From assembly GCF_002797575.1 (NCBI RefSeq), contig NZ_PGTX01000002.1:248001-312000 (forward strand): a stretch of 64,000 nucleotides of DNA. The letters run 5' to 3'. A model generated the notes under the pieces. The model worked only from the letters and a program-made list of their open reading frames with translations. It had not been told where the DNA came from and did not search any database. The position numbers and the translations under genes are program-made. The stretch comes from Polynucleobacter brandtiae (GTDB lineage Bacteria; Pseudomonadota; Gammaproteobacteria; Burkholderiales; Burkholderiaceae). This document shows, piece by piece, positions 6,770 through 47,560 of the stretch; the first letter of the stretch is position 1, and every line of letters starts with the position of its first letter.

Positions 6770-8044
6770 GTGACATTTGATTTAAGCACCCTGCTTTTAT
6801 TTGGCCTGCCATTGGGTATATGTGCAGGCCTTTTAGTTTATGCGCTGAACTTGCGATCTGCCCTCATGCGAGTGCAAGAGCAAATTCAGAATGAAGGGGC
6901 TCTAACCACCACTTTACGAACTGAGCGCGATCAGGCCCTGCAACAGGCTATTCGACTAGAGGCAGAGTTACATTCTGAACGCAAGCAAGGCCTTGGCAGA
7001 ATTGAGTCTCTCAACGAAGCTAAAGAAGCCCTCACCAGTCAGTTCAAGAATCTAGCAAATGAAATTTTGGAAGACAAATCCAAACGCTTTGCTGAGCAAA
7101 ATGTGGCTAGTCTAGATGCATTGCTCAAACCACTACAGACCAAACTAAGTGAATTTAAAGAACAAGTTAATACGTCTTACGGTAATGAGGCGCGCGAACG
7201 CTTTGCCCTTAAAAATGAAATAGAACGCCTGGCCAATCTCAATCTACGCATGTCTGATGAGACCCGCTCCCTAACGCAAGCATTAAAAGGGGATTCTAAA
7301 GTGCAGGGTAATTGGGGTGAGCTGGTATTGGAGTCCATCCTAGAATCTTCTGGCCTACGCAAAGGTGAGGAGTATTTGGTTCAAGATAGTCATACTCTGA
7401 CTGATGGTTCACGTCTCCAACCTGACGTAGTGGTCAAGCTTCCTGAGGGAAGAAGTCTTGTAGTCGATAGTAAGGTATCGATTACTGCGTATGCACGGCA
7501 TGCCCAAGAAACTGACCCCGCCATTGCCGAACAAGAATTAGCGGCTCATATTCAATCACTACGGCAGCATATTCAGGGGCTGTCTTCGAAGAACTACAGT
7601 GCACTTTACGGTATTGGCTCGGTAGACTTTGTGCTGATGTTTGTTCCCATTGAGCCTGCATTTTTGCTGGCCTTAAAAACAGCGCCTAATCTTTATCAAG
7701 AAGCCCTCTCTAAAAATATTGTTTTAGTTTGTCCCAGCACCTTGATGGCTACGCTGCGAACTGTAGCCCATCTCTGGCGCCAAGACCACCAAAATCGCAA
7801 TGCGCTAGAGATCGCAAAACAGTGCGGCAGCTTGTACGATAAGTTTGTCGGATTTGTGGATGACCTAGAAAAATTAGGTCAGCGATTGGATCAAGCCCAA
7901 ACTAGCTACCATGATGCGTTTAACAAATTGAAGTCTGGCAAAGGCAACCTCATTCGGACTGCAGAAAAAGTACGGGAGTTAGGTGTTAAACCTAGTAAGA
8001 GCTTATCAAGCCCCCTGATTGAATCTGCTGCAGATCCTGAATAA
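6770..8044 (+). CDS. rmuC: RmuC family DNA recombination protein
   Basis: RmuC proteins limit inversions and recombination at short inverted repeats; the mechanism is unclear, but the domain has a nuclease-like fold. The 424-residue product has an N-terminal membrane anchor (about residues 5-25) and a charged coiled coil (about 28-90). The conserved RmuC region follows, with QGNWGELVLESILESSGL, the PDVVVKLPEGRSLVVDSKVS core near residues 218-238 and FVLMFVPIEPAFL. Translation appears to start at GTG 6770; no in-frame ATG fits better. The gene stands alone between grxD and an MFS gene that begins nine bases after its stop. Confidence 0.9.
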   Translation: MTFDLSTLLLFGLPLGICAGLLVYALNLRSALMRVQEQIQNEGALTTTLRTERDQALQQAIRLEAELHSERKQGLGRIESLNEAKEALTSQFKNLANEILEDKSKRFAEQNVASLDALLKPLQTKLSEFKEQVNTSYGNEARERFALKNEIERLANLNLRMSDETRSLTQALKGDSKVQGNWGELVLESILESSGLRKGEEYLVQDSHTLTDGSRLQPDVVVKLPEGRSLVVDSKVSITAYARHAQETDPAIAEQELAAHIQSLRQHIQGLSSKNYSALYGIGSVDFVLMFVPIEPAFLLALKTAPNLYQEALSKNIVLVCPSTLMATLRTVAHLWRQDHQNRNALEIAKQCGSLYDKFVGFVDDLEKLGQRLDQAQTSYHDAFNKLKSGKGNLIRTAEKVRELGVKPSKSLSSPLIESAADPE

Positions 8045-8053
8045 ACGGCTCTT

Positions 8054-9385
8054 TTGATTTTGACAAAATCAGATCCCCATTCTTATAGAAAAGTAGCTGT
8101 TGCAGCCTGCTTTGGTACTTTCTTAGAGTGGTATGACTTTCTAACTTTTGCTACCTTAGCTGTCATTTTTGGCCCCCTATTCTTTCCTTCTAGCGACCCC
8201 AATACGGCTCTTCTAGCCAGTCTAGCGACCTTTGGTGTGGGTATGGTTGTGCGACCACTTGGTGCCGCTTTTTTTGGATCATTGGGCGATCGCATTGGTC
8301 GTAAGCCCGTATTCATGATGACAATTAGCCTCATGGGTGTTGCTACTGTGAGCGTTGGATTTTTACCGACCTATGCCGATATTGGCATTTGGGCCGCAGT
8401 CTTGTTAGTCGGCCTCAGACTACTTCAAGGCCTTTCTGCCGGCGGTGAAATTGGTGGGAGTGCGGTCTACCTTACTGAACACGCAGGGCAAGAAAATCGT
8501 GGGTTCAAGACTAGTTTTTTACAACTCATGGGTCCTCTAGGCATTTTAGTATCGACTATTCAGGTGGCCCTACTTCGGCACTATCTTAGCGATGACCAAT
8601 TCCAGTCTTGGGGTTGGCGTGTACCATTTTGGATGTCCCTATTGCTCCTGATCATTGCATTTTGGATACGTAGATCTTTAGAAGAAACCCCTGTGTTTCT
8701 AGAACTTAGTAAGCATGGTGCAAAAGTTGAATCGCAGTTGATCAATAACTTTAAGAACCCAGAAATTCGAAAGAGAATGTTTCTACTCTTTTTCTGTGTT
8801 TCATCCAGTGGTGCCATCTTGTTTTTCTGTGTACAGGTTTACACGGCCATTTTTCTGAAAACAGCAGCCCACCTTCCTAGCGCCTTGGTAGATCAACTCA
8901 GTATCTATGCGACCTTGGTTCTTTTCCCGCTGACTATTTTTACAGGATGGCTATCCGATAAAGTTGGTAGAAAACCAGTGGTGGTCTGTGGTCTGATATT
9001 CGGGGCGGTATTGATCTATCCGGCATTTGAGATTTTGCAGATACTCAGTGCGCAGTATCTTCAATCGAGCAATGACGTTTTCGTAGTCCAAATAGGGTTG
9101 ATTCTGACCGCCCTATCCCTCTCACTGGCACTGGTGATCGGACCGCAATCGGCATTACTGGCAGAGCTTTTTCCGGCAAAGAATAGAAATAGTGCAGCCA
9201 CCCTCCCCCATAATTTAGCGGCGGGGTGGATCGGGGGATTATTACCTCTGATTGTTACTGGCTTGAATCAATGGTCTGGTAACAGCATTGCCGGGCTTTG
9301 GTATCCCACGGTATTTCTGGGTTGTGGGGCTGTTGTTGCTTTGCTTTATCTGCCTGAAACCAAGAAAACAGATCTGCTTCTTTAG
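8054..9385 (+). CDS. MFS transporter, metabolite:proton symporter (MHS) type
   Basis: This 443-residue, 12-helix permease belongs to the MHS branch of the major facilitator superfamily (ProP, ShiA and KgtP relatives). It has the subfamily N-terminus GTFLEWYDFLTFATLAVIFG. The loop 2-3 motif is GDRIGRKPVFMM, and the repeat in the second half is GWLSDKVGRKPVVV. The substrate cannot be read from the sequence; organic acids, betaines or proline are typical. No ATG is available near the start, so TTG at 8054 or 8060 is the probable start. A hairpin overlapping the stop codon probably ends the transcript. Confidence 0.88.
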   Translation: MILTKSDPHSYRKVAVAACFGTFLEWYDFLTFATLAVIFGPLFFPSSDPNTALLASLATFGVGMVVRPLGAAFFGSLGDRIGRKPVFMMTISLMGVATVSVGFLPTYADIGIWAAVLLVGLRLLQGLSAGGEIGGSAVYLTEHAGQENRGFKTSFLQLMGPLGILVSTIQVALLRHYLSDDQFQSWGWRVPFWMSLLLLIIAFWIRRSLEETPVFLELSKHGAKVESQLINNFKNPEIRKRMFLLFFCVSSSGAILFFCVQVYTAIFLKTAAHLPSALVDQLSIYATLVLFPLTIFTGWLSDKVGRKPVVVCGLIFGAVLIYPAFEILQILSAQYLQSSNDVFVVQIGLILTALSLSLALVIGPQSALLAELFPAKNRNSAATLPHNLAAGWIGGLLPLIVTGLNQWSGNSIAGLWYPTVFLGCGAVVALLYLPETKKTDLLL

Positions 9386-42036: not shown

Positions 42037-42741
42037 CTAAGCCATTGAAATTATTGAAGTTATCTTCTTAGGGCGACCCCGGCGACGAATCTTAACCTGC
42101 TCGGGATTGTTCTTAAAAAGCTTTTGTGCATAAACATCCCTCATCCAGGGCTTTGAGCGTAGAAGCGCTTCTGTAATTTGTTGATCCTCCCAGTAGGGGG
42201 CACCCTCCTTCACAAAAGTAGCCCAAGCCATTTGTCTTTCAAAGGGGGTATTACCTAATCTCCAAAAATGCTCGTGGTCCACCAACCAAGTTTCGGCAGT
42301 CCCACTAATATGGGACCCAAAACTAGTCCAGCTTGATCCCTGTGGACTCGACTCAAATCCGGATCTCACTGGATTGAGCTCGATGTAGCGTTGGCATCGC
42401 AAAAAATAATCGGGGTCTATCAAGGACGATCGATACCGCCCCTCCCAAATAGTGCCAGAGCGACCTTGCTGCTGATTAAAGTACTGAACATAACGTCGAC
42501 CCAAAGACTGCATCGTTTTAGCAAGCGAATCAACATGCTGAGGTGTTATCAAAAGATGCACATGATTTGGCATCAAAGCAAATGCATGCACAGAACAAGC
42601 AAATTGTTTGGCCGCTTCGCGCAACCAGTCTAAATAAATACGACGATCAGCATCTTTATAAAAGATTGTTTCTCGATTATTTCCCAGCACCATCACATGC
42701 ATTGCTTGGCCAGGGATGATCGTACGAGCCTGTCGTGCCAT
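42037..42741 (-). CDS. REP-associated tyrosine transposase (RAYT, Y1/HUH family)
   Basis: This 234-residue Y1-type transposase-like protein matches RAYTs, domesticated IS200/IS605-related single-strand nucleases that mobilise REP or REPIN sequences. The HUH motif is HVH at residues 60-62 (ALMPNHVHLLITP), and the likely catalytic Tyr84 is in LGRRYVQYFNQ. The family motifs WEGRYRSSLI and RYIELNPVRSG follow at about 99-127. The basic C-terminus has an AT-hook-like core, RRGRPKK. It starts 12 bases after the mrcA stop on the same strand and probably depends on mrcA transcription. No insertion-sequence ends or target duplications are visible. Confidence 0.9.
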   Translation of the reverse strand: MARQARTIIPGQAMHVMVLGNNRETIFYKDADRRIYLDWLREAAKQFACSVHAFALMPNHVHLLITPQHVDSLAKTMQSLGRRYVQYFNQQQGRSGTIWEGRYRSSLIDPDYFLRCQRYIELNPVRSGFESSPQGSSWTSFGSHISGTAETWLVDHEHFWRLGNTPFERQMAWATFVKEGAPYWEDQQITEALLRSKPWMRDVYAQKLFKNNPEQVKIRRRGRPKKITSIISMA

Positions 42742-42753
42742 TACCCTAACGAA

Positions 42754-45081
42754 CTACTGAAGTTCGCGAACCCCATTGCCATTAGAAAATTCAGGGATAA
42801 ACCAGTCGCCGTCCAATTGACTAACGCCTGCAGGTACTTCACGCGTCTGTTGTGGCTCGTCTCGTAGAGCGGTCGCCATATAAGATGTCCACATAGGCAA
42901 AGCAAGACCGCCGCCAGTCTCTCGATCACCTAAGCTAGCAGGCTTATCAAAGCCAATCCAGGCGATGGCTACCACCTTTGGGCTATATCCTGCGAACCAT
43001 GCGTCATGAGAGTCATTCGTAGTGCCCGTTTTACCGGCAATATCACTTCTTCCCAACTTCGCCCTGGCACTAGCAGCCGTACCCGTCTTGGTCACCTCTT
43101 GAAGCAAGCTATCCATAACAAAGGCAGTACGCGCATCCAGGACGCGTGTTGCATCTACTTTTGCCTGAGTTGGCTTTGCCTCGAACAAGACAACCCCTTT
43201 TGAATCCACCATCTTATTAATTAAGTAAGGGTCAACTCGATAGCCTCCATTAGCAAAAACACTGTAGGCAGAAGCCATTTGCAATGGGGTTACTGAACCA
43301 GCACCGAGCGCCATGGTTAAGTAAGGAGGGTGTTTCTCGGCTTCAAATCCAAAGCGTTGGATGTAGTCCTGTGCATAGGAAGGGCCAATAGCGCGAATAA
43401 TTCGCACTGACACTAAATTTTTAGATTTAGCTAGCGCATTACGCAAACGCATCATGCCATCGTACTTACCGTCATAGTTTTTGGGTTGCCATGCCTGACT
43501 ACCGGTCTCCATACTTCCAATCGACAGCGGTGCATCGTTGACCATCGTGCTAGGTGAGAAGCCTTTTTCAATCGCAGCGGCATAAATGAATGGCTTGAAG
43601 GATGAGCCTGGTTGACGCTGCGCCTGCGTTACATGATTAAATTGATTGCGACGAAAATCAAATCCACCTACTAAGGAAAGAATCGCGCCCGTCTCGGCAT
43701 TCATTGACACAAATGCTGCCTCTACTTGAGGTAGTTGTGCCAACTTCCAAACGCCGCCATCAGATAACAGTCTAATAATTGCACCGGCACGTAAGCGTTT
43801 TTTTGGTTGGGCGCTATCAGTCAAGGAGGCTGTAGCTAACTTCATTCCCTCTCCCTTTAGAGTGATAATGTCCCCAGTAGCAATCATGACTTGCATCTCT
43901 TTTGGCTTGAAATCAAGAACAACTCCGGACTGCAAATCATCTAATTGTGGATGTGCAAGCAATGCCTCATCAATCACGCGTTGACGCTTGACAGTTTCCT
44001 CGGGTAATTCAATGAATCCCTCAGGGCCACGGTAGGCATGGCGCAGATCGTATTCAAAAATACCGCGACGCACTGCTTTATAAGCCGCATCTTGATCAGC
44101 CTTCAAGATAGTGGTGTAAACATCAATTCCCTGAGAGTAGATTGCCTCACCGTATTGGGTAAACAATAATTGCCGCACCATCTCTGATGGAAAGTCAGCT
44201 CTGGTACTGAACTCATTTCCAAGGCCGCGTATGTGCAACTCTTCGGCCATGGCTATTTGATATTGCTCCGGGGTTATGTAGCTTAGGTCGCGCATACGCT
44301 GCAAAATATATTCTTGGCGAATTTTTGCGCGACGGAAATTGCTCACTGGGTTATAAGCGGAGGGAGCCTTCGGTAAACCCGCCAGCATCGCAGATTCTGC
44401 AATTGAAATATCTTTTAATTCTTTACCAAAATAAATTTGCGCTGCGCTAGAAAAACCATACGCTCGCTGACCCAAGAAAATTTGATTCATGTAGATTTCT
44501 AAAATCTTATCTTTACTGAGTTGGGCTTCGATCTCCCAAGCCAGCAATACCTCGTAAATTTTCCGGCTAAACGTTTTTTCATTACTTAGGAAAAAATTAC
44601 GAGCGACTTGCATGGTGATAGTAGAGGCGCCCTGAGACAAATTGCCTCGTAAGTTTGTTAAGGTGGCTCGCAATATACCAACGTAATCTACTCCGCCATG
44701 CGAGTAAAAACGGTCATCCTCAATAGCCAAAACTGCATTACGCATTTTTATCGGAATCTCATTAAGGGGAATGACCTTACGACGCTCCTCCCCAAACTCA
44801 CCTATGAGTACCTTATCGGCTGTATAAATTCGCAATGGGGTTTTGGGGTTGTAATCCACCAAGGCTGAGATTTTAGGCAAATTAGGCTTGGCTATTAAGA
44901 AAGCGTAGCCCAGCATGAGCATGCACACTACTGCAAATACCATGCCCATAATGAGTAATGCTTTTACTAATGGGTTACTTCCCGATGTTGAGCGCCCAAC
45001 TACCTGTTTTGTTGGGCGTCGGTCTGGCTGTCGGCTAAATCGCCGATTCAATGGTGGCTTGTCTTGAGGAGGGTTTGCCAT
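42754..45081 (-). CDS. mrcA: Penicillin-binding protein 1A, bifunctional
   Basis: PBP1A polymerises and cross-links peptidoglycan in the periplasm. The 775-residue protein has a short cytoplasmic tail and a membrane helix (about 36-62). The GT51 glycosyltransferase domain has the catalytic EDDRFYSHGGVD and QGASTITMQVARNFFLS. The transpeptidase domain has SSFK (QPGSSFKPFIYA), SKN (LAKSKNLVSVR) and KTGTT boxes. The frame also allows TTG at 45087. ATG 45081 was chosen because it lies six bases after a perfect TATAAT and normal family starts fit either. It is divergent from the secretin locus. Confidence 0.95.
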   Translation of the reverse strand: MANPPQDKPPLNRRFSRQPDRRPTKQVVGRSTSGSNPLVKALLIMGMVFAVVCMLMLGYAFLIAKPNLPKISALVDYNPKTPLRIYTADKVLIGEFGEERRKVIPLNEIPIKMRNAVLAIEDDRFYSHGGVDYVGILRATLTNLRGNLSQGASTITMQVARNFFLSNEKTFSRKIYEVLLAWEIEAQLSKDKILEIYMNQIFLGQRAYGFSSAAQIYFGKELKDISIAESAMLAGLPKAPSAYNPVSNFRRAKIRQEYILQRMRDLSYITPEQYQIAMAEELHIRGLGNEFSTRADFPSEMVRQLLFTQYGEAIYSQGIDVYTTILKADQDAAYKAVRRGIFEYDLRHAYRGPEGFIELPEETVKRQRVIDEALLAHPQLDDLQSGVVLDFKPKEMQVMIATGDIITLKGEGMKLATASLTDSAQPKKRLRAGAIIRLLSDGGVWKLAQLPQVEAAFVSMNAETGAILSLVGGFDFRRNQFNHVTQAQRQPGSSFKPFIYAAAIEKGFSPSTMVNDAPLSIGSMETGSQAWQPKNYDGKYDGMMRLRNALAKSKNLVSVRIIRAIGPSYAQDYIQRFGFEAEKHPPYLTMALGAGSVTPLQMASAYSVFANGGYRVDPYLINKMVDSKGVVLFEAKPTQAKVDATRVLDARTAFVMDSLLQEVTKTGTAASARAKLGRSDIAGKTGTTNDSHDAWFAGYSPKVVAIAWIGFDKPASLGDRETGGGLALPMWTSYMATALRDEPQQTREVPAGVSQLDGDWFIPEFSNGNGVRELQ

Positions 45082-45087
45082 TTTCAA

Positions 45088-45218: not shown

Positions 45219-45899
45219 ATGCCCCCACGCCAAATCTCTCCCCAATCCTTTGATGATATTTTGAGTGACCTAGGGGATGATCCAGCCATTCCCGATCCCC
45301 ATGGTATTCGTAAGCCTTCAGCAGCCCCAAGACCGCAGCAGGAGTTCACCAAAAATCCAAAATCCACTGCCTTTTCTTTGGAAAACCTTCCGCTAAATAA
45401 CGTCAAAATCGGTCCTTTTTTCCTTTACGCCTGGGCCTTTTTGGCGCTGTCAGCTGGTCTCTTTCTGATTTTAGAATCCAATAAATCAAGTTCTGCAGCG
45501 CAATTGGAGCCACTACAAATTCAATTATCAAGCTTACAAAAACAGTTCGATTTAGCCAAAATAGAATGGGAACATGATTTGGAGAGTCTTTATGAAGAAA
45601 TAGATATATTAGAAGTAAGCATTCACTTATTAGAGGTAAAAGCACCGTTATCATCGGCTCAAAACAAAACGCTTCCCACGCCCCATGAGGCGGATCTGCG
45701 TCGCTGGAGGTACCTAGGGTTAATTCGCGTAAAAGGTATCGAGCAGGCTTTTTTTCACAACGGCAAAGCCAGCGTGATGCTGGCAAAGGATGGGCTTGCT
45801 TTGGGTGACTGGCGTCTAAGCCAAGCCCAAAAAGAAGGGGCGATATTAACCCACCCCAAGGGCAAATCGATTACTTTTCAATCGTCCAAACCAGAATGA
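45219..45899 (+). CDS. Putative PilO/PilP-like inner-membrane protein of a reduced secretin locus
   Basis: I do not recognise this 226-residue protein with certainty. It has an acidic, proline-rich cytoplasmic N-terminus (FDDILSDLGDDPAIPDP at residues 11-27) and one membrane helix (about 66-86). A coiled coil follows (about 95-142), then a beta-rich C-terminal domain (about 160-222, RRWRYLGLIRVKGIEQAFFHNGKASVMLAKDG). The helix plus coiled coil resembles PilO, and the C-terminal domain loosely resembles the PilP homology region. It sits where pilMNOP normally stands and overlaps the secretin gene by four bases (ATGA). ATG 45219 has an AAGGAAA site; a TTG at 45144 in the same frame would add 25 residues. 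Confidence 0.6.
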   Translation: MPPRQISPQSFDDILSDLGDDPAIPDPHGIRKPSAAPRPQQEFTKNPKSTAFSLENLPLNNVKIGPFFLYAWAFLALSAGLFLILESNKSSSAAQLEPLQIQLSSLQKQFDLAKIEWEHDLESLYEEIDILEVSIHLLEVKAPLSSAQNKTLPTPHEADLRRWRYLGLIRVKGIEQAFFHNGKASVMLAKDGLALGDWRLSQAQKEGAILTHPKGKSITFQSSKPE

Positions 45900-47023
45900 A
45901 TCCATTTAAAAAGGTTCGCCTTTTACCCATCCTTTACATCACTATTGTTGTGCTGAGTTTATGCAATATACGCCCTCTAGCTGCTCAATCCACTCAAGAA
46001 ATCAGCGCCTCACCCGGCCCTCAGGATGGGCTTATAAGCCTACAGTTTCATCAAATAGAGCTAACTGCACTTTTACAAGTATTGGCTAAAGTGGGCAATA
46101 CGAACTTTATCTTGAGTGAGTCAATTCAAGGCAAGATTACTGTGGATTTAAGTGACACTCCCTGGAAAACAGCCCTGGATTCCATTCTGGCAAGCCGCGG
46201 ACTTCGCTTAGTCAGAAACGGGGGTATTTACTGGATTGGGCCTCACGCAGAAATCCAGAGCTTCCAAAAGTTTCGGCGAGAGGACGCCGCCCTCCCATTT
46301 GGCGGGGATCATATAAATAGTCCTCGTCAGATTCTGATTGAGGCACGTATTGTTGAGGCAGATCAGCGCTTTGCTAGAGAGCTAGGAGTCAAACTAGGGT
46401 ATCAAGCTGCAAATGCTAGCAACCCCAATCAAAATGCCAGCGCCGCGGTAGATTTAGCTGGAGCCGGCTTAAATGGCTTTAATCCAGCGACTCTAGCCGC
46501 AACCCTCATCTCTAAGAACGCAGCAAGACTCTTACAAATCGAGCTCTCAGCGCTGGAATCTGATGGTCAGGGCAAGATTTTGTCTAACCCCCGCATCATG
46601 ACGGGGGATCAAGTCAAGGCTGTTATCGAGCAAGGTACTGAATTGCCGTATCAAGTTAGCAGCCAAAGCGGCAGTAAATTACAGTTTCGTAAGGCTAATT
46701 TACGTTTGGAGGTTTTACCCAAAATTCATCCAGATGGAAAAATATCCATGCTGGTGGGCATCAATAAAGACACGATTGGTATGAAAACCGAACAGGGCTA
46801 TGCGATCGATACTAAGAACTTGAGCTCTGAGGTAACGGTTGAGAATGGGGGTACAGCCATCATTGGGGGGATTTTCCAAACCACGGAACGAGAGGATGAG
46901 GTGAAAATTCCCCTGCTGGGCGATATCCCTCTGATTGGGCACTTATTTCGGCATAAATCCAAATTAGCAGACAAAACTGAATTATTAGTTTTCTTAACTC
47001 CCACTGTTTTAGACAAACCCTAA
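45896..47023 (+). CDS. Short PilQ/HofQ-like secretin
   Basis: This 375-residue protein is an outer-membrane secretin with a signal peptide to about residue 30. It has one STN domain (about 47-116, LISLQFHQIELTALLQVLAK) and a complete secretin domain (about 145-373), including RQILIEARIVEADQRFARELG, GKILSNPRIMTGDQVKAVIEQG and LLGDIPLIGHLFRHKSK. It lacks the AMIN domains and is about half the length of typical PilQ. In size it is close to HofQ/ComE secretins linked to DNA uptake. The position before aroK-aroB is the standard pil/hof/com locus. A role in DNA uptake or type IV pili is inference. Confidence 0.88.
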   Translation: MNPFKKVRLLPILYITIVVLSLCNIRPLAAQSTQEISASPGPQDGLISLQFHQIELTALLQVLAKVGNTNFILSESIQGKITVDLSDTPWKTALDSILASRGLRLVRNGGIYWIGPHAEIQSFQKFRREDAALPFGGDHINSPRQILIEARIVEADQRFARELGVKLGYQAANASNPNQNASAAVDLAGAGLNGFNPATLAATLISKNAARLLQIELSALESDGQGKILSNPRIMTGDQVKAVIEQGTELPYQVSSQSGSKLQFRKANLRLEVLPKIHPDGKISMLVGINKDTIGMKTEQGYAIDTKNLSSEVTVENGGTAIIGGIFQTTEREDEVKIPLLGDIPLIGHLFRHKSKLADKTELLVFLTPTVLDKP

Positions 47024-47035
47024 TAAAATCGAGGG

Positions 47036-47560
47036 GTGAACTCTTCATCAAACAATATTTTTCTGATTGGCCTTATGGGCGCCGGCAAATCCACAGTTGG
47101 AAAACTGCTTGCTAAAAAATTAGGGCGCCAATTTTTAGATGCCGATCATGTCATTGAAGAGCGCTGTGGTGTAAAGATCCCGGTCATCTTTGAGATGGAG
47201 GGAGAAGAGGGCTTTCGTAGGCGCGAGGCCCATGCCATCAAAGATAGCACTGCTGAACACAATATTATTTTGGCTACCGGTGGTGGTGCGATCTTATTGG
47301 CTGAAAATCGTCAATTACTGAGCGAGCGGGGCACAGTCATCTATCTTCACGCAAGTCCGGTTGAGCTCTGGCATCGGACTAGAGGCGGTGAAGGTAGACC
47401 GCTACTGAAAAATGGCGATGCCAAAAAAATTCTCGAAAACTTATACGTCATTCGGGATCCCCTCTATCGCGAAATCGCCGACCACATTATTGAAACGGGT
47501 AAGCCCAGTGTGAATCAACTGGTGAATACTCTCATCATGCAACTTGAACTTTCTGCCTGA
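47036..47560 (+). CDS. aroK: Shikimate kinase
   Basis: AroK phosphorylates shikimate in aromatic amino-acid synthesis. The 174-residue protein has the P-loop [12 protein letters not shown] at about residues 12-23, the shikimate-binding [11 protein letters not shown] and TGGGAI, and the lid [11 protein letters not shown]. The start appears to be GTG 47036. TAAAAT lies exactly six bases before it, and the GAGGG run abuts the GTG too closely to act as a ribosome binding site. aroB follows after eight bases. Confidence 0.96.

Follow-up and report, generated by a model that had tools for sequence, protein, structure and literature searches.

A two-gene secretin locus in Polynucleobacter, the likely envelope-spanning half of a reduced type IV competence pilus

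In Polynucleobacter brandtiae, the site that holds pilM-Q-type genes in other genera of the family is occupied by a single gene pair, which raises the question of what these two genes do and how they might connect the inner membrane with a secretin. The window analysed here, 64,000 nucleotides of contig NZ_PGTX01000002.1, comes from a 2.0 Mb genome of the genus Polynucleobacter that is 99.98% complete and is labelled G000 below. As claimed in the first-pass annotation, the ORF listing of the window places only two genes between mrcA and aroK, one for a membrane protein designated AP and one for a secretin:

42754-45087, minus strand: mrcA, flanking the AP side in divergent orientation
45219-45899, plus strand: AP, a predicted 226-aa single-pass membrane protein (cytoplasmic peptide, transmembrane segment, coiled coil, HR domain), from ORF, conservation and model
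45896-47023, plus strand: PilQ-type secretin of 375 aa, from ORF and domain matches
47036-47560, plus strand: aroK, flanking the secretin side

The start of the secretin gene overlaps the AP stop (ATGA). A TTG start 75 bases upstream of the AP ATG would give a product of 251 aa, but 226 aa is taken as the right length because M1, P2 and R4 are invariant in 47 of 47 aligned sequences. Profile searches returned only one secretin match in the G000 genome. The pair is no accident of assembly, since it recurs through the genus.

The secretin passes the cut-off of the PilQ model TIGR02515 (308.9 bits, cut-off 284.35) and remains far below that of the GspD model (174 bits, cut-off 351). Consistent with its first description as a secretin with a single STN domain and no AMIN domain, Pfam recognised one Secretin domain (PF00263, 2.9e-45, residues 219-372), one STN domain (PF07660, 1.8e-8, residues 70-116) and no AMIN domain in the 375 residues. 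Two regions can be delimited:

46040-46243, plus strand: N0/STN domain, residues 49-116, the sole recognised periplasmic domain (PF07660 at 70-116; PF21305 at 49-112)
46322-47011, plus strand: secretin core, residues 143-372 (best stretch of TIGR02515; PF00263)

The match to PF21305, the GspD N0 family, lies slightly under cut-off. The N1 domain is also missing, none being found at residues 113-144, and the distance from N0 to the core is 29-30 residues in three members of the genus versus 88-106 in eight of ten PilQs of other genera. Of the N0-N3 set that characterises the GspD of type II secretion systems, the secretin has N0 only. In the remaining two PilQs, both from g22, the distance is 30 and 36 residues and N1 is gone too; these g22 proteins (L036 3089-4480, L037 6847-8217) have lost N1 independently, and PilM-N-O-P-like genes are still there. 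The AlphaFold2 model of the secretin was poor (pLDDT 47) and was left unused.

The AP product can be divided into three parts:

45219-45314, plus strand: residues 1-32, conserved cytoplasmic motif MPxRxISPQSFDxILSELGDDPAIPDPHGIRK (invariant and near-invariant columns; dN/dS)
45408-45638, plus strand: residues 64-140, one long helix with a transmembrane segment at 67-85 followed by a probable coiled coil (model, hydropathy)
45684-45887, plus strand: residues 156-223, PilP/GspC homology-region (HR) beta domain (fold match, hhalign)

The AlphaFold2 model, built with 47 sequences, comprises a low-confidence N-terminal helix (8-17), the helix 64-140 and the beta domain 156-223 (pLDDT about 90), and the hydropathy peak falls on residues 67-85. 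Model and hydropathy together bear out the cytoplasmic segment, single helix and beta-rich end announced for this protein, and make its coiled coil a probable one. The best fold matches were PilP (2y4y, Z 9.1, rmsd 2.4 over 68) and the HR of GspC (3oss_C, Z 8.1). PilP or GspC HR filled six of the top seven ranks, and the remaining one was a chain from a model of the type IVa pilus machine; Foldseek's own E-values were all above 0.001. With hhalign, an HR profile of 17 genus members matched the PilP of the sister genus at 97.2% (E 3.7e-11 for a single comparison), against 0.1-0.2% for the PilO and PilN controls; the match to the PilP profile was only 47% with 47 closer relatives and rose to 97% once divergent genus members were added. 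Among all PDB chain sequences, two of the three best hits of the HR profile were Neisseria PilP, at E-values that are weak alone (0.025 and 0.067). On these model and profile comparisons, the C-terminal domain is assigned to the PilP/GspC-type HR domains. The proposal that AP is a PilO-PilP fusion is supported for its PilP-like end and not for its PilO half: in the AlphaFold2 model the helix runs to residue 140 and is followed by the HR domain only, with no ferredoxin-like domain. No significant match identified the N-terminal part as PilO (20% over 45 columns) or PilN (9%).

Family databases did not name AP. Pfam gave no match for the protein alone and no consistent family over 10 and 15 members, NCBIfam no consistent family for it alone or over 15 members, and PHROGs one weak match (E 0.21). 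The HR beta domain, supported by fold and profile matches, is a feature of PilP, and PilP or PilO-PilP fusions likewise have their gene directly upstream of pilQ. However, AP is not a lipoprotein: the translated protein is devoid of cysteine, and the lipoprotein anchor of PilP is replaced by the transmembrane segment 67-85 and a coiled coil, without the ferredoxin-like domain of PilO. Its single transmembrane segment and periplasmic HR domain, as predicted from model, fold match and hydropathy, are those of GspC in type II secretion, whose partner secretin also keeps N0; AP differs from GspC in having its coiled coil directly after the membrane segment, no PDZ domain, a conserved cytoplasmic motif and no sequence-family match.

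Selection on AP is uneven along its length. Among 11 AP genes (those of G050, G084 and G127 being left out), median dN/dS was 0.054 for the cytoplasmic 32 residues, 0.405 for the middle and 0.223 for the HR domain, from 36, 45 and 29 usable pairs out of 55, respectively; the whole gene gave 0.236 (50 usable pairs) and the secretin 0.055 (13 genomes, 29 of 78 pairs usable). The cytoplasmic motif is nearly invariant in 47 AP sequences. A shortened form, R-x-[IL]-[ST]-S-x-[SA]-F-D, is kept in some divergent members of the genus, and the motif is weak or absent in others (G577, G578, G545, G546, G482, G512). A slowly evolving cytoplasmic peptide carried on a fast-evolving membrane segment and coil would be the pattern of a docking site.

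The other parts of a pilus machine were sought in the whole genome, where pilB, pilC, pilD, pilins, comEA and comEC were all found. The pilB, pilC and pilD genes form a cluster next to coaE- and zapD-like genes (names assigned here), at a distance of 47 kb upstream of the window; pilBCD-coaE-zapD is the usual gene order. PilB (364 aa) matches only positions 169-462 of the 564 in the PilB model, its N-terminal domain being missing, and narrowly prefers this model (385.9 bits) over GspE models (380.8 and 361.9 bits), all scores being below cut-off and that for PilB far under it. PilC (357 aa) scores best with the HofC and GspF models and is below the cut-off of the full-length PilC model, and PilD is a 167-aa prepilin peptidase (PF01478) without methylase domain. 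The ComGA and ComGB models match the PilB/PilC-type proteins below cut-off. Motifs kept in the PilB/PilC/PilD set include Walker A, Asp/Walker B, the His-box, CxxC and GxGD. A CNNM/CorC-type gene (L051 5688-6974) overlaps the start of pilB (6971-8065) by 4 bases; each of the nine canonical pilB loci read in the genus has such a gene next to pilB, and in G094 it is broken. The PilA-like major pilin, at G000:C3 (L062), carries a PF00114 Pilin domain. Between ribD- and ribBA-like genes (L142) lie four consecutive small ORFs, probable minor pilins, one with a GspH (FimT-type) domain and one with a below-cut-off N_methyl match; those of 109 and 215 aa, which have no Pfam match, were called from position and N-terminus. 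By Pfam domain (PF00437, PF00482, PF01478 and PF00114/PF07963), the PilB-type extension ATPase, PilC, PilD and prepilins of a type IVa machine are present.

Other components were not recovered. The genome search of G000 returned no PilT, the single PF00437 ATPase being closest to PilB/GspE, and exactly one intact PF00437 ATPase was found in 12 of the 15 genus members examined first, G000 included (G050 has two, G149 four and G094 one that is broken). In addition, G149 (L049) and G050 (L055) each have an extra, larger pilus/secretion cluster that includes an ATPase, and the one in G149 also includes a secretin. PilN, PilO and PilP genes are absent at the mrcA-aroK locus. PilM, not visible at first pass, was not found in the G000 genome either, where PF11104 matched only one frame, weakly (355 aa, at G000:C3:348394), which is taken for MreB. 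With a structure related to PilP, no PilM and no second secretin in G000, none of the outcomes named beforehand as speaking against the first-pass reading was encountered. The competence apparatus is represented in G000 by both the ComEC channel and the ComEA receptor. ComEC is intact in G000 (over cut-off) and in 14 of the 15 members examined first, and was detected in 129 of 151 genus genomes; ComEA was found in all 15, over cut-off in 13 (G000 among them) and below it in G127 and G094.

Related genera provide context for this reduction. The loci of g24, g21, g22 and g11 contain PilM-N-O-P-Q-type gene strings, assigned by order and size from ORF listings in which some ORFs are merged or hidden by opposite ORFs (L038, L039 and L046, for example). 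In g9 (L044), PilM and PilN are followed by a 315-aa probable PilO-PilP fusion and PilQ; the PilO part of this fusion is a weak match (10.7%). The fusion ORF (L044 5396-6343) has no Pfam match. PilO-PilP fusions are already known, as in Pseudomonas putida Q88CU9, mentioned in PMC3169554. In g18, a protein of 179-198 aa, with the PilN FNLLPYR motif (84.5% to PilN) followed by an HR domain, stands between PilM and PilQ:

L033 5859-6398, L034 5714-6310 and L035 5768-6307: PilN-HR chimera, between PilM and PilQ

Its HR matches the C-terminus of the g9 fusion at 98.8% and the Polynucleobacter HR at 78-83%. The sister PilP profile gave no significant match to the g18 HR (0.4%) or the g9 C-terminus (6%), so these two are linked through AP and each other. 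The g18 chimera is a second, apparently independent collapse of PilN/O/P. Both reduced loci resemble that of Polynucleobacter in having PilN/O/P collapsed into fewer proteins with the HR kept, but they retain PilM, the PilN FNLLPYR motif and the N1 stretch of PilQ. These relatives are consistent with a graded and parallel shrinkage of pilMNOP, which would have gone furthest in Polynucleobacter (no PilM, one transmembrane-HR protein) and suggests an evolutionary path.

We consider it likely that a strongly reduced type IV competence pilus exists throughout the genus, that the gene pair encodes the half of it that spans the envelope, and that AP replaces PilM, PilN, PilO and PilP. With the type IVa pilus machine (PilMNOPQ, PilB/C/D/T), this pilus shares the PilQ-type secretin, PilB-, PilC- and PilD-like proteins, pilins and the pilM-Q site; it differs by its one HR protein, by the lack of any PilM found, of PilN/O/P genes at the locus and of PilT, and by the shorter PilB, PilC, PilD and PilQ (relative to usual sizes, in part model lengths). 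Building on the computed parts list, the domain identities, the conservation across the genus and the G000 searches that found neither PilM nor PilT, we infer two docking contacts, oligomerisation, retraction and DNA uptake. AP is predicted to cross the inner membrane once, and its HR domain probably binds the single N0 of the short secretin. This contact is proposed because the HR of GspC holds the N0 of GspD, a binding documented in PMC3169554, and because the secretin keeps N0 without N1 and AMIN. On the other side of the membrane, the probable docking partner of the cytoplasmic peptide is the short PilB, or PilC, and the coiled coil probably lets AP multimerise, clustering it around the platform. 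PMC4471445 describes it as very likely, though not formally shown, that PilM contacts the assembly ATPase; the joint absence of PilM and of the N-terminal domain of PilB fits the loss of such a contact. PilB, the short PilC, the PilD without methylase domain, the major pilin and the four probable minor pilins would then extend a filament; retraction without PilT would be driven by PilB itself or be spontaneous, perhaps passive, and the filament would bring DNA to ComEA and ComEC. The two functional suggestions made at first pass, a minimal link from the inner membrane to the secretin and a stripped-down DNA-uptake or pilus machine, are supported, the latter by the parts list of G000.

A more specific version can be put forward tentatively. 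AP would be a one-protein alignment module, its cytoplasmic motif placed on a motor or platform without regulatory N-terminal domain and its HR on the secretin. The whole would then correspond, in a cell with an outer membrane, to the Com pilus of monoderms, and might be the smallest type IV filament machine known to be coupled to a secretin; it would work without PilM, PilN, PilO, PilT or N-methylation of pilins by PilD. The monoderm Com pilus (ComGA-GG, ComC) likewise has one short ATPase without N-terminal domain, a short platform protein, no PilT, and one major and four minor pilins. Polynucleobacter differs by its outer-membrane secretin and AP, and its ATPase scores higher with PilB than with ComGA. 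The individual parts are of known kinds, and a machine with a single HR protein as its alignment complex would be a variant of the type IV pilus/DNA-uptake machine. Titles and abstract openings from a portion of the open-access literature contained nothing on a Polynucleobacter pilus or competence, and no description of a secretin-linked type IV machine with one HR protein as its whole alignment complex. The roles of PilM, PilN and PilO in type IV pili have long been in question. Polynucleobacter is a freshwater genus, mostly free-living, in which PilMNOP apparently collapsed to one HR protein, with PilT and the N-terminal domain of PilB apparently dropped as well. Such a genus would offer a natural minimal system that points to the indispensable contacts (from motor or platform through the inner membrane to the N0 of the secretin) and whose few parts could serve for reconstitution.

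An alternative that we regard as unlikely is a minimal type II-like secretion system or pseudopilus, with AP as GspC and the secretin as a small GspD, whose filament would push proteins out rather than take up DNA. The GspC-like architecture of AP (short cytoplasmic part, transmembrane segment, linker, HR), its fold match to 3oss_C, the preference of PilC for the HofC and GspF models, and several species in which comEC is undetected beside an intact secretin all fit this possibility. Against it stand a secretin that passes the PilQ cut-off and falls far short of that for GspD, the Pilin domain of the major pilin, the location of the pair at a pilM-Q site, the narrow preference of the below-cut-off ATPase for PilB, and the wide occurrence of ComEC and ComEA in the genus.

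A secretin match occurs in 146 of 151 genus genomes and in 115 of the 117 of good quality (at least 90% complete, at most 5% contaminated), some of the genes being broken. Sixty-eight of 74 related loci reach beyond AP, each with a secretin ORF (366-402 aa) followed by aroK; in one of them (L085, P. necessarius PPGSP2) the AP frame is interrupted. The two genes also occur at ten divergent loci of the genus (L149-L158), where the protein at the AP position has 170-264 aa. The AP profile, run against 300 genomes sampled across the order, gave 14 matches: four genus members, nine weak matches (E 3.6e-4 or worse) and G154, which matched over the C-terminal domain only (E 8.5e-7). The protein matched in G154, a member of another family, is small and encoded upstream of a different secretin, beside PilN/PilO-like proteins (as named by this analysis). 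Its locus (L146 6626-10344) is atypical and type II/IV-like: the HR protein is followed by a secretin ORF that carries a long extension at its N-terminus and by two pilin-like ORFs.

Among the 117 good-quality genomes, comEC lesions were found in 4 of 7 with a secretin lesion versus 9 of 110 without (p 0.0028), and pilB lesions in 4 of 7 versus 6 of 110 (p 0.0009), both uncorrected for phylogeny and based on lesions read by eye from match tables, with only 12 candidate ATPases scored per genome. Secretin lesions comprised G491 and G527 (no match), G518 (residual match) and G455, G461, G539 and G094 (broken); comEC lesions, 12 undetected genes and G094; and pilB lesions, seven undetected genes, G094, and G455 and G537, judged broken from E-values and match number only. 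The base test left out G528 (secretin truncated), G577 (split), G498 (stop inside the match) and G557 (contig end), the short or split comEC frames of G547 (split), G561, G572, G573 and G577, and the weak pilB match of G545. Without correction for phylogeny, the comEC value was 0.0052 with G528, 0.0087 with G528 and G577, and between 0.0038 and 0.0249 under alternative readings of doubtful genes, the upper value being the strictest; other variants for pilB gave 0.0002 and 0.0005. All three genes are lost or broken in G518, G455 and G094, the last a weaker witness because other genes nearby are also broken. Across the 151 genomes, with 12 candidates scored in each, PF00437 had no match in nine (G512, G518, G523, G527, G552, G557, G559, G577, G578).

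Losses of secretin, pilB and comEC are therefore associated, and their coupling is imperfect. A broken (G461, G539) or truncated (G528) secretin can coexist with comEC and pilB; conversely, comEC is undetected in eight good genomes with a stop-free secretin (G441, G469, G503, G514, G533, G537, G554, G562) and split in G547, and G523 has an intact secretin with neither pilB nor comEC detected. Given exceptions in both directions, some species may use the pilus for something else, such as those with comEC undetected beside an intact short secretin (G441, G469, G503, G514, G562 and others). A piliation or adhesion machine that lost retraction and DNA uptake with PilT, its competence genes persisting independently, seems improbable to much the same degree as the secretion system. 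The absence of PilT from G000 and the decoupled losses in G539, G461 and others fit such a machine, as does the abolition of DNA uptake in pilT mutants of species with retractile pili, reported in PMC4471445. Against it stand the associations between lesions, which persist without the two fragmented assemblies G491 and G527 (p 0.0079 for comEC and 0.0031 for pilB) and at the strictest comEC reading (p up to 0.025), with pilB ranging from 0.0002 to 0.0031, all uncorrected for phylogeny. That the pair is a functionless, decaying remnant of pilMNOPQ is highly improbable, since its broken copies in some lineages (G094, G455, G539) are outweighed by open frames in the same order in the 68 loci, save AP in L085, and by the low dN/dS of both genes, a conservation that already contradicts decay.

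The flank of the locus beyond mrcA shows a separate feature. A transposase of the REP-associated type (Y1_Tnp, PF01797; window 42037-42741, minus strand) lies between mrcA and a glutamate synthase gene, and a Y1_Tnp-like ORF with 69-84% identity adjoins mrcA in 68 of 68 related loci reaching that far. Its conservation beside mrcA suggests that this transposase has been domesticated.
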